From an uncultured Peptococcaceae bacterium (GTDB lineage: Bacteria; Bacillota; Dehalobacteriia; UBA4068; UBA4997), in assembly GCA_947647555.1 (NCBI GenBank), contig CANSKT010000011.1, forward strand, positions 1 to 32,270: a stretch of 32,270 bases of DNA, read 5' to 3'. The notes beneath the pieces were generated by a model. It searched no databases. It was not told the DNA's origin and saw nothing but the letters and a program-made list of their open reading frames with translations. Made by a program: the position numbers and the translations under genes. Below, piece after piece: positions 7,474 to 32,138 of the stretch. Numbering within the stretch: position 1 is the first letter of the stretch; each line of letters begins with the position of its first letter.

Positions 7474-8318
7474 AATGGCGAAAGATATTAGCGATAATCG
7501 CTTTTTTAAGCCTCTTAACGGCAACGCCCGCCTTTGCTTTGGAATACAGTCTGGCAGGCGCGGCGGCGGCAGCTTTCGGCACGCCTACTTCGGACGAAAC
7601 AATCTATGTAGGCACGAAGGAAACAGTCAATATCGACCGGGGCAAGAACAGCGCCCAGATACCGCCTGGCTTTGGCACGCCCACCAGCTATCTGCCGGGC
7701 AGCGGCGAATATCTGACCCCTAATCTGGCGGCTAACGGTTCGACGGTCAAAGCCATAAACCCCAGCGCCGGTGCGGTTGTGAGCGTCAGCAACGCTGGAG
7801 GGGTTGGCGTTAGCGGTGGTAGTAATGTATCATCTATACCGACAGCGGCCAACAGTAATATAACTGTAAGCTATACGAATAACAGCAGCTACAATAACTA
7901 TACTGACTATACCGAGGTGGACAGCAGCCTTTACTATTCCGGCGGCTATCTAGCCAGGCTGAAAATTCCGGCTATTGATGTAGACACCAAGGTGTATCAG
8001 GGAACGGACAGCAGCACGCTGGCTAAAGGGGCTGGGCATTTTGTCAATACCAGTATTTGGGACGGCAACGTCGGCATAGCCGCCCATAACCGGGGCGTAA
8101 ATAATCTGTTTGACAAGCTGCATAAGCTGACGATTGGCGATAAAATCACCCTGACTACTAAGCTGGGGACGAGAACCTATGCCGTAACCAGCGTGGAAAA
8201 AATCAGCGATACAGATAATTCTTTGCTGACTGCAACAGGGGAAAACTGCCTGACTCTATTTACCTGTGTGCGTAATGAGAGCAGCTATCGCTGGGCAGTG
8301 CGGGCAGTTGAAATATAG
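7470..8318 (+). CDS. Sortase family transpeptidase, secreted
   Basis: I use the ATG at 7470, which overlaps the preceding stop as ATGA with GGAGGG 10 bases upstream, giving 282 residues; an in-frame ATG at 7452 overlaps that ribosome site. A signal peptide (ILAIIAFLSLLTATPAFA) is followed by about 130 residues of Gly/Ser/Asn-rich linker, then the sortase barrel. The catalytic residues visible are H206 (GIAAHNRG), C266 (LTLFTCVRNE) and R274 (SSYRWAV). Sortases cut LPXTG-like signals and join the protein to the wall or to another subunit. The obvious substrate is the LPKTG-ending adhesin 1.1 kb downstream. The long low-complexity linker may let the enzyme reach through the wall. The subclass is not certain; class D/E-like is my guess. 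Confidence 0.88.
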   Translation: MKWRKILAIIAFLSLLTATPAFALEYSLAGAAAAAFGTPTSDETIYVGTKETVNIDRGKNSAQIPPGFGTPTSYLPGSGEYLTPNLAANGSTVKAINPSAGAVVSVSNAGGVGVSGGSNVSSIPTAANSNITVSYTNNSSYNNYTDYTEVDSSLYYSGGYLARLKIPAIDVDTKVYQGTDSSTLAKGAGHFVNTSIWDGNVGIAAHNRGVNNLFDKLHKLTIGDKITLTTKLGTRTYAVTSVEKISDTDNSLLTATGENCLTLFTCVRNESSYRWAVRAVEI

Positions 8319-12400: not shown

Positions 12401-15400
12401 GGGAACAGAGCGTGCCGGAAAATTATCTGCTGGATACTACACCCCAGCAAATTACCATTGTGGCTAACCGCAACGCCGAGGTGAACTTCCAAAACTACCA
12501 GCGCCCAACGCTGAAAATCAGCAAAACGGATATTAACGGCAAAAATCTCACCGGCGCAGTGTTTGAGGTTAAAACCAAAGCCAGGGTGAAGATTGGCGAT
12601 TTTCCAGTTGGCGCTGACGGCACAATTACTATCTCTAATGTGCATTTAGACGAGGGCTATTATATCGTTACGGAAAAAGTTGCGCCTGCCGGATATATTC
12701 TGGATACTACTCCCCATGAGGTGTATTTGCGCCCCGGCAAGACCACAGAAATTTCTATTGAGAATGAACAGAAGCCGGGGCTTACCATTATTAAAATCGA
12801 CAGCGTGGTGGGCGACGGCATTAAGGGCGCAAAATTTGAATTATGGGTATCTAAGGATAAAACCCAAAATGGCACTTACCAAAAGCTGAACGATACCTTT
12901 TATTATACTGACGAAAACGGTTTAATCGAACTGCCCCAGCTGGATACTGGCTGGTATAAGGTGAAAGAGGTTGAGGCGGCGGCAGGCTATCTGCTGAAAG
13001 CGCCCAGTGAGCAGATTTTGTATGTGGAGCATGACAAGGCCAGCAGTATAACCTTTGAAAATATCCCAAAGTCAGCGCTGGTTATTCGCAAAATTGACGC
13101 CGACAGCGGGGCACCGCTGGCTAACGCCTGGTTCAGAGTGCGCTATCTGGGCGGCACCTCCGGCAGCGGCGGCACAATTATCGGCGAATACCAGACCTCG
13201 GCCAATGGTAATATTATTGTTACCGGCTTGGAGGCTGGCACCTATATCTGCGAGGAAATAAACGCGCCGAACGGCTATGTGATGGATACCGCTCCCCAGA
13301 CCGCATATATATCGGGTCAGGAGCAGGATTGTCTGACTTTGACCTTTACCAACAGCAAATATGGCAGTCTGCTGATTAAAAAGGTAGATAGTCTAACCAA
13401 TGAACCTTTGGCCGATGTGCAGTTCAATGTAGTGGATAGTGCAGGCACAGTTATTGGCAACAGCAACGGTTATTTTACTACCGATAGCGCCGGGACTATC
13501 TTAATTGCTGACATTAAACCGGGGACAACGCTGGTGGTGAAAGAAACCCGCGCCAAGGAGGGCTATTTGCTGGACGATACGCCGCAGACGATTAAAATTG
13601 ATAGCAATGAAACCAAAACGTTGGAATTTAGAAACGCTCCCAAGGGCGGACTGATTATCCGCAAAATTGACAGTACCACTAGAGAGCCGCTGGCTGGGGT
13701 AGAGTTCAAAATTACCATGGCAGACGGCGAACTCTTGCCGGATAACGAGGGATTGACCTCCTCCAACGGCTTGTATTATACCGACGGCAACGGGCAAATT
13801 GTTTTGTCTAAGCTAACAGGGGCGCTTACAGTAACGGAAACCAAGGCATTGCCGGATTATATTCTGGACGCCAAGCCGCAGACGGTGGTGGTAAACGCTG
13901 GAGATACGCAAACCTTGACCTTTGAGAATACGCCCAAGGGTTGTCTGGTGGTAAAGAAAATAGACAGTATCACTAAAGAACCGCTGGCCGGAGTTGAGTT
14001 TGAGGTTAAAGGCTGCGATGGCTGCACCTATCCGGCTGGCACTTATAAAACGGACGCTAATGGTATGTTCAGATTGAGCCATATTCCCAGCGGCTGTTAT
14101 TCGGTGGTAGAAACCAAAGCCAAAAGCGGCTATCTTTTGGACAATACAGTGCATACCGTTAAGGTTGAGGGCGCTGCTTGCAAGGAAGTAACCTTTGAAA
14201 ATCAGCCGCTAGGCTCGCTCCTGATTAAGAAAATGGACGCTCAAACTAAAAAGCCGCTCTCTGGGGTAATCTTCAAGGTAACTTATGCGGACGGAACGGT
14301 GGTTGGTACTGGCAACGGTGAATACCGCACCGATGAATCCGGCTATATCACTATTCCGAATCTCAAACCGGCCAGCTATATTGTACGAGAGGTGCAGGCC
14401 AAGGAGAATTATCTGCTGGACGATACGCCGAAAACTATTGAAATTAAAGACCACCAGACCTATGAATTGGAGTTCTTTAACGAGGCGGCAGGCAGCCTGA
14501 TTATCCAGAAAAAGGATAGTCTTTCCGGCAAGCCTTTAGCGGGGGTTATCTTCAAAGTAACCAAGGCGAACGGCGAGTTTGTGCCTGACGAAAACGGCAG
14601 ATTGTCCAGCAACGGCTTTTACCAGACCGACGCCAGCGGTCAGATTAAAATATCCGGCGTGGTGGGGACTTTGGTTGTGGACGAGTACAAGACAATTCCC
14701 GGCTATGTGATTGACGAAGCAAGCAGACATCAGACGGTCGTGGTAAATCCTAACGATACACAAACGCTGACTTTCTATAACGCTCCCGGCACAACGCTGG
14801 TGGTGCAGAAATTTGCCGCTGGAACTCAAAATGAACCGCTGGCCGGGGTTAAATTCTTTGTTGCCGACCAGAATGGTACGCCGGTGGGTAATTCCAACGG
14901 CGAATACTGGACGGACGATAGCGGGCGCATTGTTATTTCCGATATTGAACCAGGCAGTAGTATCACCGCCAGAGAGGTTGCCACAGTTGACGGCTATGTG
15001 CTGGACGGCACGCCGAAAACCATTCTCATTAAAGAGGGCGAGGCGCAATATCTGACCTTTATCAACCAAAAGGCCGGGACTCTGGTGGTGCAGAAAAAGG
15101 ATAAAATAACCGGGGAGCCTTTAGCTGGCGTGGAATTTCAAATAACCTATGCCGAGGGCGGCTATGTTGATGACGCTAACGGTCATTTATCTAGTAAAGG
15201 TATGTATAAAACCGATAAAGACGGTGAAATCCGCATTTCTGGTATTGTCGGAACTGTTGTAGTTAAGGAAACTAAAACGCTGGACGGTTATCTGATTGAT
15301 CCGGCTACTCAAACCCAAACGATAGTCATTAACCCGGCGGACACCCAAACGCTGGTGTTTGAAAATATACCCTGCAATAACCTGGTTATCCAGAAATACG

Positions 15401-18000: not shown

Positions 18001-18897
18001 ATGAGCGATTATCGTCAGGTACACAGCAGTTTAGCAATCAGCCAGCACATTGCCGGATTTATGGATACGGCAGGCCTAATTAAGGATTGCTATACCGTAG
18101 CTATCAGCTGTATTAACGACGTTTTGCAAGGCCGGGCAGATCAGACGATTGATGCGCTGTTTGCGGAATTAGCGGAAAAAGGCGGTGCAGCATACGCCCC
18201 GGAGATTGAATTTATAAAGGCCGAGGTTGAGGATTTTTTGCAACAGAAAAGCTTGCTGACCGAGGCATATACCAAACCGCCCGGCGTGGATTTGCCATAT
18301 CAGTATGATGAGATTTATCCGGGCGAGCAACTGAAAATAATCGACCAGGCGCTTTATGACCAGGCGGCGGCAGTTGGTTTTCCCAAGGATTTTTTTAAGC
18401 GGGCTTATTTCGACCAAGTAACATTTTATTGCCTGCCGGATAACGCCAACCTGACTCATTCCATTTTTAACGATTGTGATTTTATTGTCTGCCGCCTTAA
18501 AGGGGCGAATTTTCAAGAAAGCCGTTTATATGGCGGCAAATTTCATGGCTGCAATATTGAGGATAGCTCTTTTTGCGGCGCAACTATCGCCAATATCAAT
18601 TTCCGGGATTGTCAGCTTGCTAATGTGTCTTTCAGTTATGCTTATATGAGCAAGTGTAATACCATTGACTGCCGTATGGAAAATATAAATTTCTACAACA
18701 CTGTTTTGAATGATTCAGCATACGATCGAATTAGCGCCAAAAATATTCGCCGCCTTTATACGGCTAATATAACGGCGGGCGGGGCGACGGAGCAGGAAGT
18801 AAAATGGCTTCGGCAAAGTATTTTCCGGGTTTTAGCCCCAGAAAGCCCGGCGACGCTGCTGAACCGTCCTAAAAGCAAAGGAGCGTTAGCGATATGA
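18001..18897 (+). CDS. Pentapeptide-repeat protein
   Basis: The start is ATG 18001 after GAGGAGG; an in-frame TTG at 17983 is rejected because it lies upstream of that site. The protein has 298 residues. Residues 1 to about 145 form a helical domain I do not recognise (SLAISQHIAGFMDTAGLIKD; EVEDFLQQKSLLTEAY). Residues about 148-230 are pentapeptide repeats with Phe/Leu at the centre (ANLTHSIFNDCDF, GANFQESRLYGGKF, ATIANINFRDC) and unusually many Cys. Pentapeptide proteins such as Qnr/MfpA fold as DNA-like helices and shield gyrase; others are scaffolds. The gene overlaps the coupling-protein start by 4 bases, so it is tied to conjugation. A DNA-mimic protective role is possible but unproven. 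Confidence 0.75.
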   Translation: MSDYRQVHSSLAISQHIAGFMDTAGLIKDCYTVAISCINDVLQGRADQTIDALFAELAEKGGAAYAPEIEFIKAEVEDFLQQKSLLTEAYTKPPGVDLPYQYDEIYPGEQLKIIDQALYDQAAAVGFPKDFFKRAYFDQVTFYCLPDNANLTHSIFNDCDFIVCRLKGANFQESRLYGGKFHGCNIEDSSFCGATIANINFRDCQLANVSFSYAYMSKCNTIDCRMENINFYNTVLNDSAYDRISAKNIRRLYTANITAGGATEQEVKWLRQSIFRVLAPESPATLLNRPKSKGALAI

Positions 18898-20693
18898 AAA
18901 TGCCCCAAAACAACAGCTATCTGCCGTTTGTTCTGCTGACTGTGCCAGTTCTCTGGCTGGGCGCACTGGCGGCAGGCTGCTATGAGGAGGGTATGACCGT
19001 CTTTGATTTAATGGGGCGTTTTAATTTGGCTTTGGCACAGCCTTGGCGGATTGTCTGGACTCCCTACACCTTAAAGGCGATGTTGATTGCTCTGCTGCTT
19101 TACGGCTTTGCTTTGGCGATGTATTTTTCCGCTAAGGAGAATCGCCGGCCGGGTGAAGAACATGGCTCGGCCAAATGGGGCAGCGCCAAAGAGTTGAACG
19201 CCAAATACCGGGATAAGCGCTCAAATCAGAATACCATTTTAAGTCAAAACATTCGCATGGGGCTGGACGGCAAAAAGCACCGCCGCAACCTGCTGCAAAT
19301 TGTAATCGGCGGCAGTGGCAGCGGCAAGACCCGCTTTTTCTGCAAACCGAACCTGATGCAGGCAAATTGCAGCTTTATTGTTACTGATCCAAAGGGAGAG
19401 ATGCTTCGTGCGGTGGCTCCTTTGCTGCTCAAGCAGGGCTATGCTATTAAGGTTTTTGACCTTATCGACCCCAGCCATTCCGACGCTTTTAATCCGCTTT
19501 TGTATATTAAGGACGATACGGATGCCATGAAGCTGGTAAATAATCTGATTAAAAATACCACGCCGAAAAACGCCAGTAATAACGACCCGTTCTGGGAGAA
19601 ATCGGAAATTGCTTTAGACACCGCCCTTATTTTATATCTCATTCATGAGGCGCCGCCAGAGGAGCAAACCTTTGAAATGGTGATGTATATGATTGAGAAC
19701 GGCGGCGCTAAGGAGAACGATGATGATTTTCAAACGCCGTTGGATTTGCTGTTCGAGGCTTTGGGCGAGGAGGAGCCAGACCATATTGCTGTGCGGGAAT
19801 ACAAAATTTTTAAGCAGGCGGCTGGCAAAACGGCACGCTCTATTCTTATCTCCGCCGCAGTGCGCCTTTCTGCCTTTATCCTGCCGCAGATTGTAGGTAT
19901 CACCTGCCGCGACGATATGGAGCTGGGACAAATGGGCGAGCGCAAGCAGGCGGTGTTTGCGGTTATTCCAGATAATGACAGTACCTTTAATTATTTGGTG
20001 GGTATGCTTTACACCTGTGCTTTTCAATCCCTTTACTATCAGGCGGATAAGGTTCACCAAGGGGGACTCCCGGTGCCGGTACGCTTGATGATGGACGAAT
20101 TTTGCAACGTATCCCTGCCGGACGACTTTGGTAAGTTGCAGGCCACTATGCGCAGCCGCAATATCATGTCAACCATTGTTTTGCAGAATATCTCAGCGCT
20201 GAAAGCCCTGTTTAAGGACGATTGGGAGGGGTTAATCGGTAATGCTGACACTATGATTTATCTAGGCGGTAATGAACACAGCACCCACAAATATATTTCC
20301 GAAATGCTGGGCAAGGAAACGCTGGATACACGCAGCCAGACTATCAGCCGGGGTTCGCATGGCTCTAGTTCTATAAACCACCAGCAAACCGGGCGTGAAT
20401 TGCTGACCCCAGACGAGGTTCGGGCAATGGATAACGCCTATGAGATTGTTTTTATTCGGGGTGAGCGGCCAGTTATCGACCGTAAATATGATATTTTACA
20501 GCACCCCAATATTAAGCTGACCGAGGACGGCGGCGCGGCTCCTTATGTGCATAAACCGCAGATAAGTTATGTAAGGCCGGATTTGAGTCTGTTCTTTGAC
20601 TCGTTAGACAATGTAGAAATTCTGGCCGATGAGTTGTTTGACGACGAAAAAATTGAAGATAAACAAATTGATGAATTGGAGGAGAATATATAA
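18894..20693 (+). CDS. VirD4/TraG-type coupling protein (T4CP)
   Basis: This 599-residue ATPase links the relaxosome to the mating channel. Two N-terminal membrane helices (about residues 9-30, FVLLTVPVLWLGALAAGCY, and 57-77, LKAMLIALLLYGFALAMYF) precede a GEEHGSAKWG segment typical of the family. Walker A is GGSGSGKT at 139-146, and Walker B is LMMDEF with D401-E402. IVTDPKGEM and the C-terminal NADTMIYLGGNE are further family signatures. The acidic C-terminus (FDDEKIEDKQIDELEENI) is suitable for binding basic relaxosome partners. The start overlaps the previous stop by ATGA, and its stop overlaps the next start by one base (TAATG). Confidence 0.95.
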   Translation: MKMPQNNSYLPFVLLTVPVLWLGALAAGCYEEGMTVFDLMGRFNLALAQPWRIVWTPYTLKAMLIALLLYGFALAMYFSAKENRRPGEEHGSAKWGSAKELNAKYRDKRSNQNTILSQNIRMGLDGKKHRRNLLQIVIGGSGSGKTRFFCKPNLMQANCSFIVTDPKGEMLRAVAPLLLKQGYAIKVFDLIDPSHSDAFNPLLYIKDDTDAMKLVNNLIKNTTPKNASNNDPFWEKSEIALDTALILYLIHEAPPEEQTFEMVMYMIENGGAKENDDDFQTPLDLLFEALGEEEPDHIAVREYKIFKQAAGKTARSILISAAVRLSAFILPQIVGITCRDDMELGQMGERKQAVFAVIPDNDSTFNYLVGMLYTCAFQSLYYQADKVHQGGLPVPVRLMMDEFCNVSLPDDFGKLQATMRSRNIMSTIVLQNISALKALFKDDWEGLIGNADTMIYLGGNEHSTHKYISEMLGKETLDTRSQTISRGSHGSSSINHQQTGRELLTPDEVRAMDNAYEIVFIRGERPVIDRKYDILQHPNIKLTEDGGAAPYVHKPQISYVRPDLSLFFDSLDNVEILADELFDDEKIEDKQIDELEENI

Positions 20694-21088
20694 TGAAAAA
20701 ACAGAATAAGAAAACTAATTTGCAAACTGCTGTATCAATAAACAAACGGCAAACCAAAACCAAACAGGGGCGTTTTGTACTCTGTTGGAAAAGAAACAAA
20801 AGACGGCAGGGCGCTTTTGCCGCTGCTTTTATGTTAAGTCTGCTGCTGGCCGCTCCTGCTATGGCTGCGCCCAGCGACCCCTTGACGATTGTTAATAACC
20901 TTTCGGATTTTATCTTCTCAATTATTAAAGCCGTTGGTGTTATTGTGCTGGGCTGGGGCATTGTGCAGGTGGGTATGTCAATTCAATCCCACGACGCCAG
21001 CCAGCGAACGCAGGGTTTTCTCTGCCTGTTCGGCGGCTTGATGATTGCCTTTGCCAAAGAAATTTTAAGCGCCATTGGGGCTATTTGA
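20693..21088 (+). CDS. Maff2/VirB2-like small membrane protein (pilin-like subunit)
   Basis: The protein has 131 residues. A basic N-terminal extension of about 40 residues precedes a signal-peptide-like helix (FAAAFMLSLLLAAPAMA), then two hydrophobic segments (FIFSIIKAVGVIVLGWGIVQ and FLCLFGGLMIAFAKEILSAI) joined by a polar loop SHDASQRTQG. This two-helix layout and position after VirD4 match Maff2/VirB2-like proteins of Tn1549-type elements. Such proteins probably form the channel or a short pilus. The N-terminal extension is longer than usual for Maff2 proteins. The start codon shares a base with the coupling-protein stop after GGAGAATA. Confidence 0.75.
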   Translation: MKKQNKKTNLQTAVSINKRQTKTKQGRFVLCWKRNKRRQGAFAAAFMLSLLLAAPAMAAPSDPLTIVNNLSDFIFSIIKAVGVIVLGWGIVQVGMSIQSHDASQRTQGFLCLFGGLMIAFAKEILSAIGAI

Positions 21089-21132: not shown

Positions 21133-21978
21133 TTGAAATTGAGCGATAACTGGATTGTGGGCAATCTGCAAGCGGCCTTTAATACTTGGAATGAAAAGCT
21201 GGCCGAAATCTGGCAGCTGATAACCACCACGCCGGAGGATTTTCGGGGCGGTACTATCTGGGGAACTATTGTAACGATTAACGAGGCTATGGAGGCAATC
21301 GGTTATGGTTTACTGGTGCTGTTTTTTGCGATGAGTATCTTTCAGTCGGCGGTGAGTTTTCGGGATTTGAAACGCCCGGAGTTTGCCCTGCGCCATTTTA
21401 TCCGTTTTTTGCTGGCTAAGGTTGCGGTTGGCTCGGCCATGGAGGTAATGAACGGGATTTTTAGCGTCTGCGGCGGCATTGTGCAGACGGTGATGGGCGG
21501 CATTGGCGGCATGACCGCAGCCAGCGTGGCAGTGCCGCAGGAGATTGTGGAGGCTGTGGAGGGCGTGGGTTTTCTCGCCAGCATACCGCTGTGGCTGGTA
21601 TCTCTGCTTGGCAGCCTGTTCATTACCGTTTTATCCTTTATCTTGATTTTGACGGTATACGGACGTTTTTTCCGGCTTTATCTCTATACGGCGTTGGCTC
21701 CTCTGCCTTTAGCCTCATTTGCTGGTGAGAATACCAGCTTTGCGGGAAAAACTTTTCTTAAAAGCTATATCGGCGTTTGTTTGGAGGGTGCAGTAATCGT
21801 GCTGGCCTGCCTGATATTTTCGGCTTATATTTCAACCAGTGCGCCGGTGCTGGACGCTTCGCTTTCGGTGGTAACCATGAGTTGGCAGTATATAGGCGAA
21901 ACTATCTTTAATATGCTGGTGCTGGTGGGTTTGGTTAAGGGGGCGGAGCGTGTGGTTAAGGAGATGTTTGGTTTATGA
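21133..21978 (+). CDS. VirB6/TrbL-like polytopic membrane protein
   Basis: The 281-residue protein has at least five hydrophobic helices (YGLLVLFFAMSIFQSAV; FLLAKVAVGSAMEVMNGIF; SIPLWLVSLLGSLFITVLSF with ILILTVYGRFF; GAVIVLACLIFSAYIS; TIFNMLVLVGLVKGAE). The middle motif FRLYLYTALAPLPLASFAGE is typical of TrbL/VirB6-like proteins of Bacillota elements. It should form the inner-membrane part of the channel. The start is a TTG at 21133 after TGAGGTGA; another TTG two codons later is possible. No ATG is available nearby. The stop overlaps the methylase start by ATGA. Confidence 0.82.
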   Translation: MKLSDNWIVGNLQAAFNTWNEKLAEIWQLITTTPEDFRGGTIWGTIVTINEAMEAIGYGLLVLFFAMSIFQSAVSFRDLKRPEFALRHFIRFLLAKVAVGSAMEVMNGIFSVCGGIVQTVMGGIGGMTAASVAVPQEIVEAVEGVGFLASIPLWLVSLLGSLFITVLSFILILTVYGRFFRLYLYTALAPLPLASFAGENTSFAGKTFLKSYIGVCLEGAVIVLACLIFSAYISTSAPVLDASLSVVTMSWQYIGETIFNMLVLVGLVKGAERVVKEMFGL

Positions 21979-22532
21979 AAAGATATGGCGTAATCTATGC
22001 CGACCCGCCTTGGCATTACCGGGTTTGGAGCAAAAAGGGCGCGGGGCGTTCTGCGGAGGCGCATTATCCAACCATGAGTATGGAGGCGATTAAGGCTTTG
22101 CCAGTGGCCGATTTGGCGGCTAAGGACTGCGCTTTGTTCCTTTGGCTGACCTTGCCCCTGCTTTACGAGGGTTGGGCGGTTATGCAGGCTTGGGGCTTTG
22201 TCTATAAAACAGTGGCTTTTGTTTGGGTTAAACAGAACAAAAAGGCCGACAGCCTGTTCACCGGCATGGGCTATTGGACGAGAGCTAACGCTGAGGTTTG
22301 CCTGCTGGCAACCAGAGGGCGTCCGAAAAGACAGGCTTGCAATGTTCACCAGATTATACTTTCGCATATTGAGGAACACAGCAAAAAACCAGCTGAGGCC
22401 AGACGGCGAATTGAATTGCTGCTGGGGGACGTTCCCCGCATTGAATTGTTTGCCCGGCAAAAAGTGCCCGGCTGGGATTGCTGGGGCAACGAGGTAGAGA
22501 GCGATATTGATTTTAATTGCCGCTCAAATTGA
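21975..22532 (+). CDS. MT-A70 family adenine methyltransferase, intact copy
   Basis: The 185-residue protein carries the catalytic D10-P-P-W13 motif (YGVIYADPPWHYRVW), HYPTMSMEAIKALP and the C-terminal FARQKVPGWDCWGNEVES segment of the MT-A70 family (N6-adenine methyltransferases). It is embedded in the mating-channel operon, a position seen in related Clostridia elements, so it may mark element DNA against host restriction. The start overlaps the VirB6-like stop. The stop codon (22530-22532) is supplied by palindrome copy 7, which also encodes the last residues CRSN. A second, broken paralogue lies at 25236-25841. Confidence 0.92.
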   Translation: MKRYGVIYADPPWHYRVWSKKGAGRSAEAHYPTMSMEAIKALPVADLAAKDCALFLWLTLPLLYEGWAVMQAWGFVYKTVAFVWVKQNKKADSLFTGMGYWTRANAEVCLLATRGRPKRQACNVHQIILSHIEEHSKKPAEARRRIELLLGDVPRIELFARQKVPGWDCWGNEVESDIDFNCRSN

Positions 22533-22558: not shown

Positions 22559-22900
22559 ATGGAAATAAAAATTCCCAAGGAAATTCGCAGGCATAAGGAA
22601 ACGATTTTCTTTGGTTTATCAACCAGACAGTTTGTTTGTTCAATGCTGGCTGTGGGTACTGCTGTGGGCGTTTATTTTGCAGCCAAAAGCTGGCTGGGTA
22701 AGGAGAGCGCCAGTTGGCTTTGTCTGCTGGCCGCCGCTCCAGTTGCCATTGGCGGCTTTTTTAATTATAACGATTTGACATTTGAGCAGTTTGTCTGGGC
22801 ATGGTTCAAGTCGCAGATACTATTTGCCCGGCCAAGAGTGTTTAGAGCTGATAATATTTATTGTCAGGCTATCGTCAGGGAGGGGTTGAAAGATGATTAA
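22559..22900 (+). CDS. prgI: PrgI family (VirB3-like) membrane protein
   Basis: The 113-residue protein begins MEIKIPKEIRRHKETIFFGL and has two membrane helices (FVCSMLAVGTAVGVYFAA and WLCLLAAAPVAIGGFF) followed by FNYNDLTFEQFVWAWF, the usual PrgI family layout. PrgI/VirB3 proteins partner with the VirB4 ATPase at the base of the channel. It overlaps the VirB4 gene by 8 bases. The ribosome site is a strong GAGGAGG. Confidence 0.88.
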   Translation: MEIKIPKEIRRHKETIFFGLSTRQFVCSMLAVGTAVGVYFAAKSWLGKESASWLCLLAAAPVAIGGFFNYNDLTFEQFVWAWFKSQILFARPRVFRADNIYCQAIVREGLKDD

Positions 22901-25220
22901 AACCTTGCAAGAAGCTAACCGCAGTGAGCGAGAGGCGTTCAAAATTCCCCGCAGCGTGCAGCAGTCTATACCGATTCGCCGGATTTACCGGGACGGTATC
23001 TGGCAGGTAGGCAACAAGTTCAGTCGTTGCTGGCGCTTTGCCGATATAAATTATCTGGTGGCTTCCGAGGCCGACCAGCGAGATATGTTTATGGCGTATA
23101 GCAGCGTCATCAACAGCCTGCCCACTGGTGCAACCGCTAAAATAACTATCAATAACCGGCGGCTGAACGGTGATGATTTTCAGCACAGCGTTTTAATGCG
23201 CTTAAAGGGCGATAAGCTGGATAAATACCGGCAGGAGTATAACGCTATTCTGACCGAGCAGGCCATGTCCAGCAGTAATTTAATTCAGGACAAATACATC
23301 ACCATATCGGTGGCGAAAAAGCAGATTGACGAGGCGCGCACTCTGTTTAAGCGGGTGGATATTGATTTGGCCAAGGGCTTTGGGCGGCTTGACAGCGGTG
23401 CGAAACCGCTGGATAACCACGAACGCCTGCGGATATTTTATGACTTCTTCCGTCCCGGTGAGGAAAGCGGTTTTCGCTTTGATTTAAGCGAACTAATGCG
23501 GCTGGGGCATAGCTTTAAGGATCATATCGTCCCGGACGGTATGCGTTTTCTGGCTGACCATTTTGAGATAGGCTCTCAGGTAGGCCGGGTGCTGTTTTTG
23601 AGAGATTACGCCAGCTTTATTAAAGATACGATGTTGACCGATTTGTCCGATTTTCCCCGTAATTTGATGGTGTCTATTGATATTCTGCCAGTGCCGACCA
23701 ATGAGGCGATTAAGCTGCTGCAAAGCCAGATTATGGCGGTGGAATCGGATATTACCCGCTGGCAGCAAAAGCAGAACGCCAACAACAATTTTACTGCCGC
23801 TATTCCTTACGATTTGGAGCAGCTGCGGGCGGAGAACAAGGAATTTTTGGACGACCTGACTACCCGCGATCAGCGCATGATTTTCGGCAATATTACGCTG
23901 GTACATCTGGCGGATAGCTTGGAGCAGCTTAACTCCGATACGGAAACGCTGCAAGCCGTTGGCAATGAGGGTTTGTGTCAGTTTTCTATTCTGCGCTATC
24001 AGCAGGAGGACGGTTTAAATACCGCACTGCCTTACGGTTTGCGCCGGATTAAGGCGGTGCGAACGCTGACTACCGAAAGCACCGCCGTCTTTATGCCCTT
24101 TCGGGTACAGGAGATACAGGACGCCGGGGGCATTTATTATGGCGTAAACGCCGTCAGCAAAAATCTGCTTATTTGCAACCGCAAGCGGCTCTTGAATCCT
24201 CATGGTTTTATTTTGGGCGTTTCCGGCTCCGGCAAGTCTTTCAGCATGAAAGAGGCTATCACTTTTATTGCCCTTTCCACCAACGACGATATTATCGTTA
24301 TTGACGCGGAGCGAGAATACGGCGATTTGGTAAACGCTTTGGGCGGCGCTGTGATTGAGGTATCGCCCAACAGTCCGCACCATATTAACCCTTTGGAAAT
24401 AAGCCGGGGTTATGGGGCTGGCGAAAACCCGGTGGCGATGAAATCTGAATTGCTGATGAGTATTTGCGAACAGCAAATGGGCAGCGGCAATTTGGGGGCT
24501 TTTCATAAGTCGATTATTGACCGTTGTACGGCCAGCGTTTTTCACGACTTAATTGCCAGCGGCGGCAAGGCCAAGCAGCCAATTCTTGCCGATTGGCGCA
24601 ATGAAATTAAAAAGCAGCCGGAGCGGGAGGCGCAGGAGTTGGCTTTGGCTTCGGAACTGTTTGTGGAGGGCAGCTTAAATATGTTTGCCCACGCCACTAA
24701 TGTAGATATATCCAACCGCATTATTTCTTTTGATTTGTATGAGATGGGCGAACAGCTGAAGCCGACGGCGCTTAATGTAACGCTGGAAACTATCCAAAAC
24801 CGGGTGGCTGCTAACCGGCTGGCCGGTAAATACACCTGGGTATTTGTGGACGAGGTTTATTTGTTTTTCCGCTATTATTATTCGGCGCAGTTTTTGTATA
24901 AGTGTTGGAAACGCTTTCGCAAATACGCCGCCGCAATGACTGCCGCCACGCAGAATGTGGAGGAGTGTCTGCGTTCCGATACGGCGCGCATGATGTTCGC
25001 CAACAGTGAATTTCTGGTGCTGCTTAATCAGGCGGCCACTGACCGGGCGGAGTTGGCGAAACTGCTGAATATTTCCGCTAACCAGATGTCCTATATAACC
25101 GGCGCTGAGGCCGGGCATGGCCTCTTAAAGGTTGGCGGCTCGATTGTGCCTTTTGCCAATCAATGGCCGCGGGATACGGAGCTTTATTATTTGATGTCCT
25201 CAACGCCGGGCGAGAAATAA
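22893..25220 (+). CDS. VirB4-like conjugation ATPase
   Basis: This 775-residue protein powers assembly of, or transport through, the mating channel. Walker A is GVSGSGKS at 442-449, and Walker B is VFVDEVYLFF with D653-E654. The segments DAEREYGDLV and TAATQNVEECL are typical VirB4/TraE features. The N-terminal half (about 1-400) is the VirB4 domain that contacts the membrane partners. The start codon lies inside the PrgI gene, so the two are translationally coupled. Length is normal for the family and the frame is unbroken. Confidence 0.94.
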   Translation: MIKTLQEANRSEREAFKIPRSVQQSIPIRRIYRDGIWQVGNKFSRCWRFADINYLVASEADQRDMFMAYSSVINSLPTGATAKITINNRRLNGDDFQHSVLMRLKGDKLDKYRQEYNAILTEQAMSSSNLIQDKYITISVAKKQIDEARTLFKRVDIDLAKGFGRLDSGAKPLDNHERLRIFYDFFRPGEESGFRFDLSELMRLGHSFKDHIVPDGMRFLADHFEIGSQVGRVLFLRDYASFIKDTMLTDLSDFPRNLMVSIDILPVPTNEAIKLLQSQIMAVESDITRWQQKQNANNNFTAAIPYDLEQLRAENKEFLDDLTTRDQRMIFGNITLVHLADSLEQLNSDTETLQAVGNEGLCQFSILRYQQEDGLNTALPYGLRRIKAVRTLTTESTAVFMPFRVQEIQDAGGIYYGVNAVSKNLLICNRKRLLNPHGFILGVSGSGKSFSMKEAITFIALSTNDDIIVIDAEREYGDLVNALGGAVIEVSPNSPHHINPLEISRGYGAGENPVAMKSELLMSICEQQMGSGNLGAFHKSIIDRCTASVFHDLIASGGKAKQPILADWRNEIKKQPEREAQELALASELFVEGSLNMFAHATNVDISNRIISFDLYEMGEQLKPTALNVTLETIQNRVAANRLAGKYTWVFVDEVYLFFRYYYSAQFLYKCWKRFRKYAAAMTAATQNVEECLRSDTARMMFANSEFLVLLNQAATDRAELAKLLNISANQMSYITGAEAGHGLLKVGGSIVPFANQWPRDTELYYLMSSTPGEK

Positions 25221-25235
25221 ATGGAGGTGTGCTAA

Positions 25236-25841
25236 ATGTTTGTAGATATTTACAATACAAATAAAAAATATGCCATTCTTTACGTTGATCCACCTTGAAA
25301 GTATAATAAGCGCAATAAATTTGGCACTAGCTTTGGCGGTGGAGCGGCTGCACATTATCCCACTATGAGCATGGAAGAAATACAAAAGTTACCCATTGAA
25401 CGGCTGGCAGCTAAAAACTGCGCTCTGTTCCTCTGGGTAACTTTTCCTTATCTTAATGAGCAGATAAAGCTTTTTGATTACTGGGGCTTTAAGTATAAGA
25501 CGTTGGGCTTTAGCTGGCTGAAAATAAACAGTCGGGATGGACGGCCATTTTTTGGCGTGGGCTATTACGCCAAAAGCAACTGTGAGGTTTGTTTGTTGGG
25601 GGTTAAGGGCAGCTTAAAGCCGGTCAGCAATCGGGTGTCCAGCTGTATAGTAGAGCCGCGCCGGGAACATAGCCGCAAGCCGGATATTGTCCGGGAGAAA
25701 ATTGTAGAACTGTTTGGCGATTTGCCGCGCATTGAACTGTTTGCCCGGCAAAGCTTTGCTGGCTGGGATTGCTGGGGTAATGAAACGGAAAAGTATGTGC
25801 AAGATGAAAATAACGCTCAAATTGAGCTGCATTTTTCTTGA
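25236..25841 (+). pseudogene. Second MT-A70 methyltransferase, TGA in place of the catalytic Trp codon
   Basis: The start ATG 25236 follows GGAGGTG at a good distance. The reading is MFVDIYNTNKKYAILYVDPP, then TGA at 25296-25298, then KYNKRNKFGTSFGG in the same frame to TAG or equivalent at 25839-25841. The stop sits exactly where DPPW has its Trp (TGG), so one G-to-A change accounts for it. The rest is intact: HYPTMSMEEIQKLP, and FARQSFAGWDCWGNETEK, closely paralleling the copy at 21975-22532. An in-frame ATG at 25365 lacks a ribosome site and would lose the catalytic motif. TGA is a normal stop in neighbouring genes. The alternatives are low-level TGA readthrough, which commonly inserts Trp, or a sequencing error. 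The tail encodes NNAQIELHFS through palindrome copy 8. Confidence 0.85.
25815..25827. repeat. Palindromic repeat copy 8 (GCTCAAATTGAGC), in coding sequence
   Basis: The core lies in the last codons of the broken methylase gene, read as AQIEL, and is followed by TGCATTTTTC. The left flank AATAAC matches that of copy 10 exactly. Confidence 0.93.
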
Positions 25842-25866: not shown

Positions 25867-28188
25867 ATGAAAAAAGATGAGAAACAACCAAGGCTCAAGC
25901 AGCCTAAAAATAAAGCGGCGCAAAGCCAGAAACCTATATTATCTTCCAAGCAGGCCGCTAAGCTTATGCGGGATAATTATGTTAGACAGCGTAACAAAAA
26001 ACCTGCTGAACAAACGCAGGAACGTACAAACGAAACCGAATATGCCATAGATAATATTGAAGCAGCTGCTTATATGGCAGTTGATGAAGTTTTGCCGATA
26101 AAACAGCCTAAGACTAAATCTGCAAAAGAGCCAAGGCCAGAAACAAAGCCAGAAGCTTTTAATTATAATGATGATGTATCAGCAGGGGAGAGTTCTAAGG
26201 CAGAACTGCCACAACGCCAAATCCCAAAACAGCAGCCGAAAAATTTGCAACAGCAACAGCCAATCCTAAAACAGCGGCTAAAAAATTCACAACAACAACA
26301 GCCAATCCCAAAACAGCAGCTAAAAAGTTTACAACAACAACAGCCAATCCCAAAACAGTGGCTCAAAAGTTCACAACAACAACAGTCAATCCCAAAACAG
26401 CAGTCGAAAAATCCGAAACAACAAAAGCCGAAACTAAAAGAAGAACCATCTTATATTTCCAAAATGCTGGAAGAAAACCCTAAAACAGATGTTAAGCGTG
26501 AAAAACAAGAGCCAAAAAGCAAGCCAACAACAATGGATATTAAAGAACGTCAAACAAATTCTAACCCCTTGCCAGAGGAAATACCCCGGCAAGGGGTTAT
26601 TTGTGATGCGGCGATTAAACCAGCTGTTAAAGAAAAGGCAGTTTATATATCCCCGAAAAACAGCAGGCAGGACAAAACGCAGAATGTTCAGCCAAATGAC
26701 GCTCAATTTGAGCCGCATTTTTCAGATATACCTGTTGTTAAGTCTAAACCAGCTGCTTATAAGGAGAAAACAGTTAATAGGCAGGTTGATTTTATACAAG
26801 AGAGTTCGCAAAATAACGCTCAATTTGAGCTATATTTTGAACCAGCAAAAAAAGCGGATAATAGGCTGGTAAATTCTTATGCCAAACCCAAAGATGTATC
26901 GCCTAAAAATAAGCCCGTATATATTGTGCCGAAAACAAGGGGTGCAGCTTATGAGAAAAAGTCTGTTGTTCCTAAACAACAAACTTTTGGCAGAAATAAA
27001 ACTGCTGCAAAGCTGGCAGGCAAAGCCAAAGAGCAAATGCAGAAGAAAGTCCAGCAGACGGCTGGCGTTTCTGCGGAATTTAGCAAAAGGCTAGTTAAAT
27101 TTGTGGCTAAAACAACGACTGCTATTGCTAAACCATTATTGGCAATGCTGGGCGGCAGTATTGCCTTGATAATCCTTGCCGCCATAGTGCTGATAGCGGC
27201 GGTGGTAAGTTCGCCTTTGGGCCTGTTTTTTGCTGGAGAGCGCAGCGCAGCCAATGCTGTTTCCCTTGCCGAGGCCGTAGCCAGTGTGAATGTTGCCTAC
27301 AATGCCAAATTGGAGGAATTGCAAGAGGGCGATTATGCCGGGATTGAGATAACCGGGCAGGCGGCAGCTTGGCATGATGTGCTGGCTGTGTTTGCGGTTA
27401 AGGTTGCTGGGGCTGATGTGGGTGGTTTAGATGTAGTTACGCTGGACAGCCAGCGGGTTGAGTTGCTTAAAAGCGTGTTTTGGGATATGACAAATATCCG
27501 AACTGAAACAGAAAGCACTGATAATGGCGAGATACTTAAAATAAGCGTTACTGCTAAAAGTGCGGACGATATGCGGATAGCCTATGCTTTTTCCAATTAT
27601 CAGAATAGTGCGCTAGATGAGTTGTTGGCTGAAAGCACTGCTTTAATTGCTTTGGCTGGTAGTTTGGATATTACCAATGTTGACGCATTGACAGTGCTTG
27701 CCGCTTTGCCTGACGATTTGCCGGAGGCGCGGCGGAATGTGGTGCAGACGGCTTTGACTCTGTATGGCAAGGTAAACTATTTCTGGGGCGGCAAGTCGCT
27801 GTCTATTGGCTGGGATAGCCGCTGGGGTGAGTTGCGTAAGGTTACGGCGGCAGGCAGTCGGACAACTGGCAGTTATCGCCCGTTTGGGCTGGATTGCTCC
27901 GGCTTTGTGGATTGGGTGTTTTATAATGTTACTAATGGCGGTTATATAATTGGGCATGGCGGTGGTGCAGCAAGCCAGCACGATTACTGTACTGATATTA
28001 GCTGGGCAGAGGCTATGCCCGGTGATTTGGTGTTTTATCTGGAAGATGATCATGTGGGCATTGTCTGTGGCTGGGATGATAGCGGCAATTTGCTGGTTAT
28101 TCATTGTGCCAGTGCAGCTAACAATGTGGTTATAACAGGAACCTCCGGCTTCAGCTTTGTGGCAAGGCCTGATTTTTATGGTGATTAA
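25867..28188 (+). CDS. Membrane-anchored NlpC/P60 wall hydrolase of the conjugation system
   Basis: I start at ATG 25867, preceded by AAAGGAGAGAGG; a longer in-frame reading from 25714 would overlap the methylase and is not preferred. The protein has 773 residues. Residues 1 to about 420 are a long disordered Lys/Gln/Pro-rich region with five 14-residue repeats. A membrane helix follows at about 426-455 (SIALIILAAIVLIAAVV). The next segment (about 460-640: WHDVLAVFAVKVAG; LKSVFWDMTNI) is typical of Tn1549-family proteins of this kind. The NlpC/P60 domain is at the end, with C677 (LDCSGFVDW), H729 (DDHVGIV) and H746 (LVIHCAS). It should cut wall peptides to let the channel through. By orientation, the disordered half is cytoplasmic. 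Two in-frame palindromes lie in that half. Confidence 0.9.
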   Translation: MKKDEKQPRLKQPKNKAAQSQKPILSSKQAAKLMRDNYVRQRNKKPAEQTQERTNETEYAIDNIEAAAYMAVDEVLPIKQPKTKSAKEPRPETKPEAFNYNDDVSAGESSKAELPQRQIPKQQPKNLQQQQPILKQRLKNSQQQQPIPKQQLKSLQQQQPIPKQWLKSSQQQQSIPKQQSKNPKQQKPKLKEEPSYISKMLEENPKTDVKREKQEPKSKPTTMDIKERQTNSNPLPEEIPRQGVICDAAIKPAVKEKAVYISPKNSRQDKTQNVQPNDAQFEPHFSDIPVVKSKPAAYKEKTVNRQVDFIQESSQNNAQFELYFEPAKKADNRLVNSYAKPKDVSPKNKPVYIVPKTRGAAYEKKSVVPKQQTFGRNKTAAKLAGKAKEQMQKKVQQTAGVSAEFSKRLVKFVAKTTTAIAKPLLAMLGGSIALIILAAIVLIAAVVSSPLGLFFAGERSAANAVSLAEAVASVNVAYNAKLEELQEGDYAGIEITGQAAAWHDVLAVFAVKVAGADVGGLDVVTLDSQRVELLKSVFWDMTNIRTETESTDNGEILKISVTAKSADDMRIAYAFSNYQNSALDELLAESTALIALAGSLDITNVDALTVLAALPDDLPEARRNVVQTALTLYGKVNYFWGGKSLSIGWDSRWGELRKVTAAGSRTTGSYRPFGLDCSGFVDWVFYNVTNGGYIIGHGGGAASQHDYCTDISWAEAMPGDLVFYLEDDHVGIVCGWDDSGNLLVIHCASAANNVVITGTSGFSFVARPDFYGD
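26218..26427 (+). repeat. Five 42-bp tandem repeats coding a Gln-rich stretch
   Basis: Units begin at 26218, 26260, 26302, 26344 and 26386, each a 14-residue variant of PIPKQQLKSLQQQQ. The exact 42-base period keeps frame. The last unit is the most diverged (PKQQKPK-like end). It lies in the predicted cytoplasmic disordered half of the NlpC/P60 protein. Confidence 0.93.
26701..26713. repeat. Palindromic repeat copy 9 (GCTCAATTTGAGC), in coding sequence
   Basis: Read in frame as AQFEP inside the NlpC/P60 gene. The flanks are AATGAC on the left and CGCATTTTTC on the right, nearly the same as copy 8. Confidence 0.93.
26818..26830. repeat. Palindromic repeat copy 10 (GCTCAATTTGAGC), in coding sequence
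   Basis: Read in frame as AQFEL inside the NlpC/P60 gene, 117 bases from copy 9, which is 39 codons. The flanks are AATAAC and TATATTTTG. Confidence 0.93.
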
Positions 28189-28631: not shown

Positions 28632-31600
28632 ATGGCTAAATTAGAGGATATTATTGTAGGCTGTAATGTTAATGGACTTGTTATAAACGAAACGGTTTCT
28701 GTTATTGCTATAAAATGGTATGGTAGTAATGTTATGCAAGTTACATATAAAGATACCAAAGGTAATTTAGGCGACCAACTCTTATACAGAGAAAATGAAG
28801 CCAATCTAAGCGTTTTGGATAAAAAACTGCCTTGGAGTTTTGATGCTGATGGAGAAATGCTAAGGCTTGTATCAGAAGCTTACCGTATAAATTTAGCTCA
28901 TTTATTTGACCCTTATTTGGCAGTACATACATCTGCTGTGGAGCCTCTACCTCATCAGATTTCGGCCGTTTATGAAGAAATGTTACCAAGACTCCCTCTA
29001 CGCTATATACTAGCAGATGATCCTGGTGCTGGAAAAACAATTATGACTGGTTTATTCCTAAAAGAATTGATAATTAGGGGAGATTTAAAACGGTGCTTGA
29101 TTGTTTCTCCTGGTAGTTTGGCTGAACAATGGCAGGATGAGCTGTTTCGCAAATTTAATTTGCGTTTTAATATTTTAACAAATGATGTAATTGAAGCTTC
29201 TGTAACAGGAAATATATTTACAGAAAATTCTTATTGCTATTATATTATTCGTTTGGACAAGCTTGCAAGAAATGATGTCTTACAAAATAAACTAAAAATA
29301 AGTGATTGGGATTTGATTGTGGTGGATGAGGCACATAAAATGTCCGCTACTGTTTGGGGAAATGAGCCTAAATACACGAAGCGTTTTATGGTTGGACGAC
29401 TACTTTCTAGCATAACACGTCATTTTTTGCTGCTAACAGCTACGCCACATAACGGCAAAGAACAAGATTTTCAGTTATTTATGTCGTTGATAGATCAAGA
29501 TAGATTTGAGGGTGCAGCACACACCAGTAATCACTCTATTGATGTTTCTGATGTTATGCGGCGTTTAGTGAAAGAGGAACTGCTAAAGTTTGACGGAACA
29601 CCACTGTTTCCAGAACGACGTGCTAACACAGTGAATTACACTCTTTCACCCAGAGAGATTAAATTATATCAAGCAGTTACCGATTATGTGGAACAAGAAT
29701 TTAACCGTGCCGATTCTTTAAGCAACGAACATAAAAATACAGTTGGTTTCGCTCTTACTATCTTGCAAAGGCGTTTGGCTTCTTCACCAGAGGCAATTTA
29801 TCAATCATTACGCAGGCGGCGTGAGCGTTTGGAAAATAGATTGACTGAAGAAAAATTGCAAAAGCAAGCTGAATATTATCAAAAATATGATTTATCTGAT
29901 TATGACGATGATGATTTGCCCTCGGCTGAATTTGAGGAACTAGAAGAAAATATTGCGGATCAGGCTTCGGCTTCAACTACGATCAGTGAATTGGAAGCGG
30001 AAATAAGCACTTTGCAAAGGCTTGAAAAATTAGCAGCTGAATTGCGTACCAGTGGTGCTGACCGTAAATGGGATGAATTATCTAAGCTTTTGCAGGATAA
30101 TGATGAAATGTTTAGCGAAGATGGGCAGAGAGAAAAACTGATTATTTTTACCGAACATAGAGATACACTACGCTATTTGGCAGATAAAATCAAGACACTG
30201 TTTGGCGATGATAGATCAGTAGTACAAATTCATGGCGGTATGCTGCGAGATGAACGCCGCAAGGCTGAGGAACTGTTCAAGCAAGATAAAGATGTGCGAA
30301 TTATGATTGCTACTGATGCCGCTGGTGAGGGCATTAACTTGCAAAGAGCGCATTTAATGGTGAATTATGATTTACCTTGGAATCCTAATCGTTTAGAGCA
30401 GCGTTTTGGTAGAGTTCACCGTATTGGTCAAACCGAGGTTTGTCATTTATGGAATTTAGTAGCTAAAGAAACAAGAGAGGGGCTTGTTTTTCAGCGGCTA
30501 TTTGAAAAACTGGAAGAAGAACGCAATGCCCTTGGTGGTAAGGTTTTTGATATATTAGGTAAGGTTAGCTTTGAGAATGAATCGTTGCGTGATTTGCTGA
30601 TTAAAGCGGTACGTTATGGTAATAAACCAGAGGTTAGAGCCAGACTGTGGCAGGTTATAGATGATTCGCTTGACAAGGCAAAATTACAGGAGTTACTGGA
30701 AGAAAGAGCCTTGACCGAGGACTCCATGGATATTAGCAAAGTTATGAAGATTAAGGAGAATATGGAGAGGATTGAGGCTCATAAATTGCAGCCACATTTT
30801 ATTGAAGCTTTCTTTGTTGACGCTTTCAAAAGTGTAGGCGGTTCTATACGGCAACGTGAGGGTAGGCGTTATGAAATTATTAGAGTGCCAGCCGCTGTAA
30901 AAAATCGAGATATGCAGATTGGCTTTGGTGCGCCGGTTATAGACAAATATGAGCGGATTTGTTTTGATAAAGACGATTGTAATTTGCAGGGACAAAAGCC
31001 AGCAGAGCTTATCTGTCCCGGACACCCTTTATTGGAGGCTACACTTGACTTAGTGCTGGAAAGAAATTTCGAGCTATTGAAACATGGTACTATTTACATT
31101 GATGATTCTGATTATGGTACAGAGGCTCGCCTATTATTCTACATAGAGGACTCTATTCAAGATGGAGTTATACTTGAGAACGGCGCTAAACGCATTATTT
31201 CTAAAAATCTTCATTTTGTGGAAATGCAAGAGGACGGTACTGCTAAAAACGCCGGTTATGCACCTTATCTTGATTATCGTTCGGCAACCCAGGAGGAAAC
31301 AGCAGCAATTTTGGATTTTGCCAGAACACAAAGCTGGCTAACGAATGGCGTTGAAGATTTGGCTTTGCAATATGCGATTGCCGAGATTGTGCCGCAACAT
31401 TTTAATCAGGTTCGGCAGCATAAAAATAAAATGCTGGATAAAATTGCCAAGGCTGTTAAAGAGCGTTTGACTTCCGAAGTTCAGTATTGGGATAATAGGG
31501 CTAATACTTTAGCCGAAAAAGAATCTTCTGGCAAAATCAATGCCAAACTTAACTCACAAAATGCCAGAAAAAGAGCTGACGATTTAGAAGCACGTTTACA

Positions 31601-32138
31601 TAAACGCATAGAAGATATTGAAAAAGAAAAAATGATTTCTGCTACTCCACCAAATATTGTAGGCGGTGCATTGATAATACCCAAAGGACTGTTGCATATT
31701 TTGACAGGCAAGCCTCTGCCGGATACCTTTGGGCAAACTGATAAACAAGCTATTGAATATGCTGCCATGAAAGCGGTTATGGACATTGAAAGTGAATTAG
31801 GCTATCTGCCAAAGGATGTAAGTGCGCTAAAATGCGGCTATGATATAGAATCAAAAATACCAGAGGAAATTGCGCAAAATGGTTTTACCTTAAGAATGAT
31901 TGAGGTTAAGGGCAGAGCCAAGGGAGCGACCAGCGTAACGGTTAGTAAAAACGAGATTTTAACAGCACTAAATAAACCGAATGAGTATATTTTAGCTATC
32001 GTTGAAGTTGACGGGGAACAAACGCATACAACCTACTTGAAACAGCCATTTAAGAAAAGTTTGGATTTTGCGGCAACCAGTGTGAATTTTAACATTAAAG
32101 AATTGATAGATGGTTCGGAGGTTTTATATGGAGATTGA
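28632..32138 (+). CDS. SNF2-type helicase with C-terminal DUF3883-like domain, probable defence protein
   Basis: The 1,168-residue protein has a complete superfamily 2 helicase core: PGAGKT at 131-136, VDEAH at 231-235, LLLTATPHN near 267-275, an acidic insert (YDDDDLPSAEFEELEENI), then IFTEHRDTLRYL, IATDAAGEGINLQ and EQRFGRVHRIGQ. The last 130 residues carry a DUF3883-like domain (IESELGYLPKDVS, GYDIES, MIEVKGRAKG), whose GYDI...EVKG pattern resembles PD-(D/E)xK nuclease folds. Helicases of this layout occur in anti-phage systems such as DISARM (DrmD is an SNF2 helicase) and related restriction-like operons. The ATG follows GGAGG. The gene is more A+T-rich than the transfer genes and overlaps the next gene by 11 bases. 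The specific system cannot be named from this window. Confidence 0.85.
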   Translation: MAKLEDIIVGCNVNGLVINETVSVIAIKWYGSNVMQVTYKDTKGNLGDQLLYRENEANLSVLDKKLPWSFDADGEMLRLVSEAYRINLAHLFDPYLAVHTSAVEPLPHQISAVYEEMLPRLPLRYILADDPGAGKTIMTGLFLKELIIRGDLKRCLIVSPGSLAEQWQDELFRKFNLRFNILTNDVIEASVTGNIFTENSYCYYIIRLDKLARNDVLQNKLKISDWDLIVVDEAHKMSATVWGNEPKYTKRFMVGRLLSSITRHFLLLTATPHNGKEQDFQLFMSLIDQDRFEGAAHTSNHSIDVSDVMRRLVKEELLKFDGTPLFPERRANTVNYTLSPREIKLYQAVTDYVEQEFNRADSLSNEHKNTVGFALTILQRRLASSPEAIYQSLRRRRERLENRLTEEKLQKQAEYYQKYDLSDYDDDDLPSAEFEELEENIADQASASTTISELEAEISTLQRLEKLAAELRTSGADRKWDELSKLLQDNDEMFSEDGQREKLIIFTEHRDTLRYLADKIKTLFGDDRSVVQIHGGMLRDERRKAEELFKQDKDVRIMIATDAAGEGINLQRAHLMVNYDLPWNPNRLEQRFGRVHRIGQTEVCHLWNLVAKETREGLVFQRLFEKLEEERNALGGKVFDILGKVSFENESLRDLLIKAVRYGNKPEVRARLWQVIDDSLDKAKLQELLEERALTEDSMDISKVMKIKENMERIEAHKLQPHFIEAFFVDAFKSVGGSIRQREGRRYEIIRVPAAVKNRDMQIGFGAPVIDKYERICFDKDDCNLQGQKPAELICPGHPLLEATLDLVLERNFELLKHGTIYIDDSDYGTEARLLFYIEDSIQDGVILENGAKRIISKNLHFVEMQEDGTAKNAGYAPYLDYRSATQEETAAILDFARTQSWLTNGVEDLALQYAIAEIVPQHFNQVRQHKNKMLDKIAKAVKERLTSEVQYWDNRANTLAEKESSGKINAKLNSQNARKRADDLEARLHKRIEDIEKEKMISATPPNIVGGALIIPKGLLHILTGKPLPDTFGQTDKQAIEYAAMKAVMDIESELGYLPKDVSALKCGYDIESKIPEEIAQNGFTLRMIEVKGRAKGATSVTVSKNEILTALNKPNEYILAIVEVDGEQTHTTYLKQPFKKSLDFAATSVNFNIKELIDGSEVLYGD

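Follow-up and report, generated by a model that had tools for sequence, protein, structure and literature searches.

An in-frame UGA at the catalytic tryptophan codon of a conjugative-element methylase, and a conserved in-frame UGA in the release factor 2 gene of its host genus

When a single UGA codon replaces a functionally decisive residue of a gene, is the gene dead, or is the codon read as an amino acid? The question is raised by a frame for an MT-A70 adenine methylase (hereafter MTA2) in a stretch of 32,270 nucleotides from an uncultured Peptococcaceae bacterium. Referred to here as the window, this stretch makes up the entire contig C11 of the draft genome G000 (2.17 Mb, 162 contigs, 96% complete, 2.11% contamination). 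A preliminary description of the window had placed the stop exactly on the Trp codon of the catalytic DPPW motif, with everything else intact, including the start and the ribosome site, and had proposed either a recent knock-out or a methylase dependent on readthrough. The frame and its parts are as follows.

25223 to 25227, + strand: GGAGG ribosome-binding site, eight bases 5' of the MTA2 ATG (read directly)
25236 to 25841, + strand: MTA2, second copy of an MT-A70 adenine methylase frame, 201 codons, interrupted once (translation, profile search)
25296 to 25298, + strand: in-frame TGA at the Trp codon of DPPW, context CCA CCT TGA AAG (sequence reading)
25365 to 25841, + strand: longest open frame after the stop, 158 amino acids, from an internal ATG (open-frame list)

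MTA2 translates as MFVDIYNTNKKYAILYVDPP*KYNKRNKFG...IELHFS*, with a single internal stop, and its own terminal stop, a TGA at 25839-25841, lies in the same frame as the N-terminal part. Neither a second stop nor a frameshift occurs in the 201 codons. The catalytic motif is encoded at 25287-25298 as DPP-TGA and is complete only when Trp is inserted at the UGA. With TGA translated as Trp, the product matches the Pfam MT-A70 profile (PF05063) over its full length (positions 1-172 of 172; 103.8 bits versus a cut-off of 23.9), and a genome-wide search in which stops were read through recovered the frame at 97.9 bits with one TGA inside.

The position of the stop is less remarkable than it first appears. 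There are 85 single-base routes from MTA2 to a stop, including 17 transitions; since its six Trp codons account for 12 of these (two at Trp21 itself), a transition to nonsense in this gene usually strikes a conserved Trp, and a stop at Trp21 is not far beyond chance. What is notable about MTA2 is that everything but the stop is intact. The 158-residue open frame beyond the stop could in principle be made as a C-terminal fragment with a new, non-catalytic role. However, DPPW and the N-terminal portion of the fold are missing from it, and no well-spaced ribosome site precedes its ATG, so that such a role is extremely improbable and an active methylase from this frame appears unlikely.

A scan of genome contigs provided a comparison set of 80 MT-A70 loci. 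The preliminary description had proposed that the codon be compared with that of relatives; in 84 aligned copies, window included, residue 21 is encoded by TGG in 83 and by TGA in the window only. Conservation was measured over 81 copies, and 32 positions reached 98% invariance or more. Besides Trp21, MTA2 of the window keeps all of these (31/31). Among the 55 positions conserved at 90% or more it differs at only three, all by mild changes. Retention of the 31 codons bounds neutral divergence after a loss of function at about 4% (95%), which leaves two options, a young stop or a product that remains in use. A tree of 85 rows gives MTA2 an end branch (0.22) close to that of its sister (0.16), which argues against a long period of fast decay.

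MTA2 thus resembles pseudogenes with a single nonsense codon in having one early premature stop that is absent from intact relatives, and differs from them in having no second lesion, no accelerated branch and no other sign of decay or relaxed selection, although a recent event would look alike. According to the preliminary description, further inactivating changes in orthologous copies would point to plain decay. This expectation was borne out in part. A methylase of the same clade (L015:8001-8549) has a TAG at the conserved Trp94 and lies directly after an intact methylase of the type of the first copy in the window (MTA1), and G004, the only other genome of the genus with a strong MT-A70 match, lacks the N-terminus including DPPW; the window copy, on the other hand, shows no further decay. 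The G004 remnant (L343:11157-11555, on G004:C17) is located between a cytosine-methylase-like and a phage-type frame, both judged by eye. In G001, the closest relative compared (prfB dS 0.14), a profile search found no MT-A70 match, which is consistent with a young insertion of the element that carries MTA2. The genes of this element that surround the methylases are listed below.

4548 to 5927, + strand: MobA/VirD2-type relaxase of the conjugative element
18894 to 20693, + strand: VirD4-like coupling protein, CD1115 family (NF045973, 490.1 bits)
20693 to 21088: VirB2-type pilin
21975 to 22532, + strand: MTA1, first MT-A70 methylase, intact, Trp of DPPW encoded by TGG (profile search, tree)
22559 to 22900, + strand: PrgI family conjugation protein (PF12666)
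22893 to 25220, + strand: VirB4-like conjugal transfer ATPase, CD1110 family, directly 5' of MTA2 (NF045971, 971.6 bits)
25867 to 28188, + strand: cell-wall hydrolase with an NlpC/P60 domain, next gene of the operon after MTA2, with its own ribosome site

Judged by its genes, the element is of the CD1110/CD1115 type of conjugative elements and is putatively integrated; neither end was identified. Both methylases are inside its transfer operon (VirD4, VirB2-type pilin, MTA1, PrgI, VirB4, MTA2, NlpC/P60 hydrolase) and are the only two MT-A70 genes in the window. They share 51% identity. In the tree they form old, separate clades, and a recent duplication of MTA1 was on this ground rejected as the origin of MTA2. 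In its full-length profile match, its near-invariant residues and its place among type IV secretion genes, MTA2 is a typical MT-A70 methylase of conjugative elements, and a related element (L018) and plasmid records also carry MT-A70 genes; the exception is its catalytic Trp codon, TGA versus TGG in the 83 other copies. Several other features of the window were observed. The N-terminal part of the NlpC/P60 protein contains repeated Gln-rich coding units (CAACAACAACAGCCAATCCCAAAACAG-like; 26200-26450). A sortase (7452-8318) precedes a surface protein of 2809 residues (9463-17892) that lies inside the element and has 24 SpaA (prealbumin-like) matches and a thioester domain. At 28632-32138, there is a full-length match (1651.6 bits) to HmaA, which PADLOC lists as a helicase of a candidate defence system; the 3' end of the contig follows closely, so that no partner genes can be seen.

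How does this organism read UGA? The gene for release factor 2 (RF2), prfB, is present in G000 (525 bits; SPF and GGQ motifs intact), and TGA is the stop of 84 of 330 sampled genes (about 25%). Of the 45 tRNA places found with a covariance model, 44 were read by ARAGORN, the 45th being cut by a contig end. No UCA anticodon was found among the tRNAs read in this 96% complete genome, in which the one tRNA-Trp has the anticodon CCA, and no tRNA gene was found in the window. Candidates for tRNA-Sec in G000 scored below the cut-off, the best of them being Ser, Leu, Arg and Gly tRNAs; none of the nine genomes of the genus contains selA. Thus, the features that define a code with UGA as Trp (table 4: loss of RF2, disuse of TGA as a stop and a tRNA with UCA) are not those of G000, and the tRNA-Sec, SelA and SECIS element expected of a selenoprotein were not found for MTA2. 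We also saw no stimulatory RNA structure 3' of the MTA2 stop when its folding was compared with that of shuffled sequences (z +1.17 and +0.10).

Recoding typically shows itself as a lone UGA at a residue on which function depends, and dedicated decoding, whether by a genome-wide UGA=Trp code, by a suppressor tRNA of the element or chromosome or by selenocysteine, would account for MTA2. With RF2 present and TGA ending genes as described, no suppressor tRNA found in the window or the draft genome, no selenocysteine machinery found and no significant fold downstream, we disfavour all three explanations and give them almost no credence. Genome-wide recoding was also rejected by cross-genome alignments of sampled stretches and by a coding-potential scan of 1.08 Mb (about half the genome), in which there was no general excess of in-frame TGA codons; its exclusion by the preliminary description therefore holds, and RF2, the share of TGA stops and the lack of a UCA anticodon among the tRNAs read give it firmer ground. 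Because RF2 and TGA stops are present, and neither a tRNA with a UCA anticodon nor selenocysteine machinery was found, UGA is a stop in G000 and any readthrough would be near-cognate.

The alignments and the scan yielded only three clean cases of in-frame TGA, in prfB, glgA and MTA2; the other cases were a damaged recombinase with a TGA and an amidoligase-like gene with a TAG. All three clean cases read TGA AAG. This context was rejected as a special readthrough signal since it also ends 2 of the 84 TGA-stopped genes. Similarly, the preliminary description had regarded the A that follows the MTA2 stop as a leaky context; the base is indeed A, but the argument is weak, A being the commonest base after genuine TGA stops (28/84). 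In glgA (G000:C1:42354-42356, - strand; L207), a private TTA-to-TGA change interrupts an otherwise intact gene; the codon is TTA in G001 and a sense Leu codon in the other genus copies read. The amidoligase-like gene (G000:C29, around 7025, - strand) has one in-frame TAG in an otherwise continuous frame. Together with the L015 methylase, these cases show that single nonsense codons are a background feature. A stop that separates glgA of G000 from that of a close relative is also what would be expected if the MTA2 stop were an assembly or consensus error, or the minority allele of a strain mixture in which the population has TGG, and G000 is a contaminated draft in many contigs. Nonetheless, single substitutions to a stop are rare among consensus errors and the composition of C11 is within the range of other G000 contigs, which gives no indication of gross misbinning. 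We consider an error or a mixture very unlikely.

The reading that we consider probable is that MTA2 is a leaky null allele, produced by a recent and private change of TGG to TGA at the catalytic Trp codon of a cargo methylase of the conjugative element. It is favoured because the TGA is private, the near-invariant positions are kept, the end branch is ordinary, other nonsense codons are present and MTA1 is intact. Translation of MTA2 would start normally and yield a 20-residue peptide ending in Asp-Pro-Pro, with termination mostly through RF2. A small fraction of ribosomes may insert Trp at the UGA by near-cognate decoding, giving traces of full-length MTA2 with DPPW restored. The loss of the enzyme would be tolerated, perhaps through the intact MTA1 on the same element. 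Of the two proposals of the preliminary description, the evidence therefore favours the knock-out and leaves readthrough a smaller probability. Four points stand against the leaky null reading. The undamaged remainder of MTA2 is also predicted by continued use through readthrough; MTA1 and MTA2, as separate old clades, need not be redundant; the Pro codon before the stop is a context in which release factors act slowly in vitro (PMC7246954); and a conserved UGA in prfB of the host indicates that readthrough, or an equivalent, must work at least at that gene. The view of UGA in this host given by the preliminary description was incomplete, because this codon lay outside the window.

G000:C48:11828-12880 (L139): prfB, encoding RF2, 365 codons, interrupted in frame by a UGA at codon 27

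Autoregulation of RF2 by frameshifting is a textbook case. The G000 gene reads MLSDWKAPLEKALTKLHELQKALDMT-UGA-KEQEAARLEEAAAAPDFWDNQ, in the same frame on both sides of the UGA. The codon is present in prfB of eight of the nine genomes of the genus (G000 to G007), in the form GAY ATG ACN TGA ARG, and is replaced by GGC in the ninth (G008). All nine genes are equal in length and have a ribosome site before the ATG, with pairwise dN of 0.001-0.15 at dS of 0.14-2.15; codons near the UGA vary synonymously, whereas the UGA itself is invariant in the eight genomes that have it. G008 branches within the genus in the prfB tree (support 85/87 and 82/74, moderate), which suggests an ancestral UGA with a single loss.

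Like the autoregulatory +1 frameshift site of known prfB genes (PMC5009743, PMC12421855), this early UGA would sense RF2. Unlike that site, it has neither CTTTGAC nor an internal Shine-Dalgarno sequence in any of the nine genomes, and RF2 continues in the UGA frame; it was therefore rejected as a frameshift site of the usual kind. CTTTGAC does occur in prfB of other families of the order. Outside the genus, we read 20 prfB matches with a TGA inside: a CTTTGAC-type site lies within 30 bases in 16, the remaining four combine a variant site with an upstream TGA GGG that is in frame with RF2, and none of the 20 has the arrangement of this genus. A restart after the UGA was also rejected as the source of RF2: the first in-frame ATG, GTG or TTG follows at 27 to 57 codons in seven of the UGA genomes, and none occurs within 100 codons in the eighth (G003). 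A restart at a CTG eight codons 3' of the UGA could still account for RF2. In G000, the 100-base region at prfB, which is GC-rich, folds better than shuffled sequences (z -2.43) and may hold a candidate structure.

An early and conserved UGA, one frame on both sides and no nearby restart at ATG, GTG or TTG indicate that this genus must make RF2 across the UGA, most simply by readthrough or some equivalent. It is likely, judging from these draft genomes, that the genus swapped the prfB frameshift for regulatory readthrough of an in-frame UGA, RF2 being made only when RF2 is scarce. In such a loop, low RF2 would let a tRNA win at codon 27, and RF2 would then be made; both the readthrough and its feedback are predictions, as is the identity of the residue inserted. 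Early in-frame UGA codons in RF2 genes had been imagined before sequencing; as of Atkins et al. 2016 (PMC5009743) none was known, and readthrough had replaced RF2 frameshifting in no known organism. In a later survey of 12,753 species, premature stops of prfB were described as of the frameshift type (Prince et al. 2025, PMC12421855). We found no earlier report of the in-frame form in the literature searched, which included few subscription journals.

The tRNA that would read the UGA was also considered. A tRNA-Trp(CCA) with a 4-bp anticodon stem reads UGA (PMC13092985). The host likewise has only tRNA-Trp(CCA), and the top pair of its anticodon stem is a weak G-U; by sequence, however, this stem is not of the 4-bp kind. 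The G-U pair does not track the prfB trait, being found also in relatives of the order with a canonical prfB, and a 4-bp stem was therefore rejected as a genus-specific cause. The tRNA is identical in seven of the eight UGA genomes and 96% identical to these in G003 (L275-L282). G008 has a different tRNA-Trp(CCA) (C24, L302) and no UGA in prfB, which is one coincidence of two changes and no more.

Given the prfB UGA, low RF2 should raise UGA readthrough in this host, and MTA2 could on that account be a conditional methylase: when RF2 is scarce, DPP-UGA-A would be read as Trp and a useful amount of enzyme made. Leaky UGA codons read by tRNA-Trp are known from bacteria with the standard code (PMC7918605), and MTA2 shares with them the codon, the expected amino acid, which would restore DPPW, and the intact downstream frame with its near-invariant residues. 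It differs from them in that its stop is not conserved among relatives. The residue before the UGA, Pro in MTA2 and Thr in prfB, may also contribute: Pro before a stop is a context of slow peptide release by release factors in vitro, and Thr is depleted before stops in all phyla (PMC7246954). These residues would argue for leak and not for regulation. With a TGA that occurs in no relative, a context that also ends ordinary genes, no structured element 3' of the stop and no general enrichment of in-frame TGA codons in the half of the genome sampled, a conditional methylase is unlikely. That MTA2 is switched on through its DPP-UGA codon by low RF2, the same signal as for the host prfB, would be a more specific claim, and we regard it as quite unlikely.

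On the leaky null reading that we prefer, the methylase allele alone is nothing unusual, a nonsense mutation, probably recent, in the cargo of a mobile element. It may serve as a natural reporter, since full-length MTA2 would require insertion of an amino acid at the UGA. Of the two observations, that on RF2 outranks the methylase allele in importance, the in-frame form of RF2 being the rarer thing. With a conserved in-frame UGA in prfB, the old readthrough alternative to frameshifting becomes directly testable in this genus. If the proposal is correct, its prfB would be the simple RF2 feedback loop once imagined and reported never to have been found, and the genus would show how much UGA readthrough a bacterium with the standard code tolerates. 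If readthrough at prfB is tuned by feedback, low RF2 would also increase the reading of UGA codons elsewhere in the host.

Finally, a second, short release-factor-like frame of approximately 200 residues, with a weak prfB match (about 64-73 bits), was observed in G000 (G000:C40:7927-8475; L141) and also in G001, G006 and G007.
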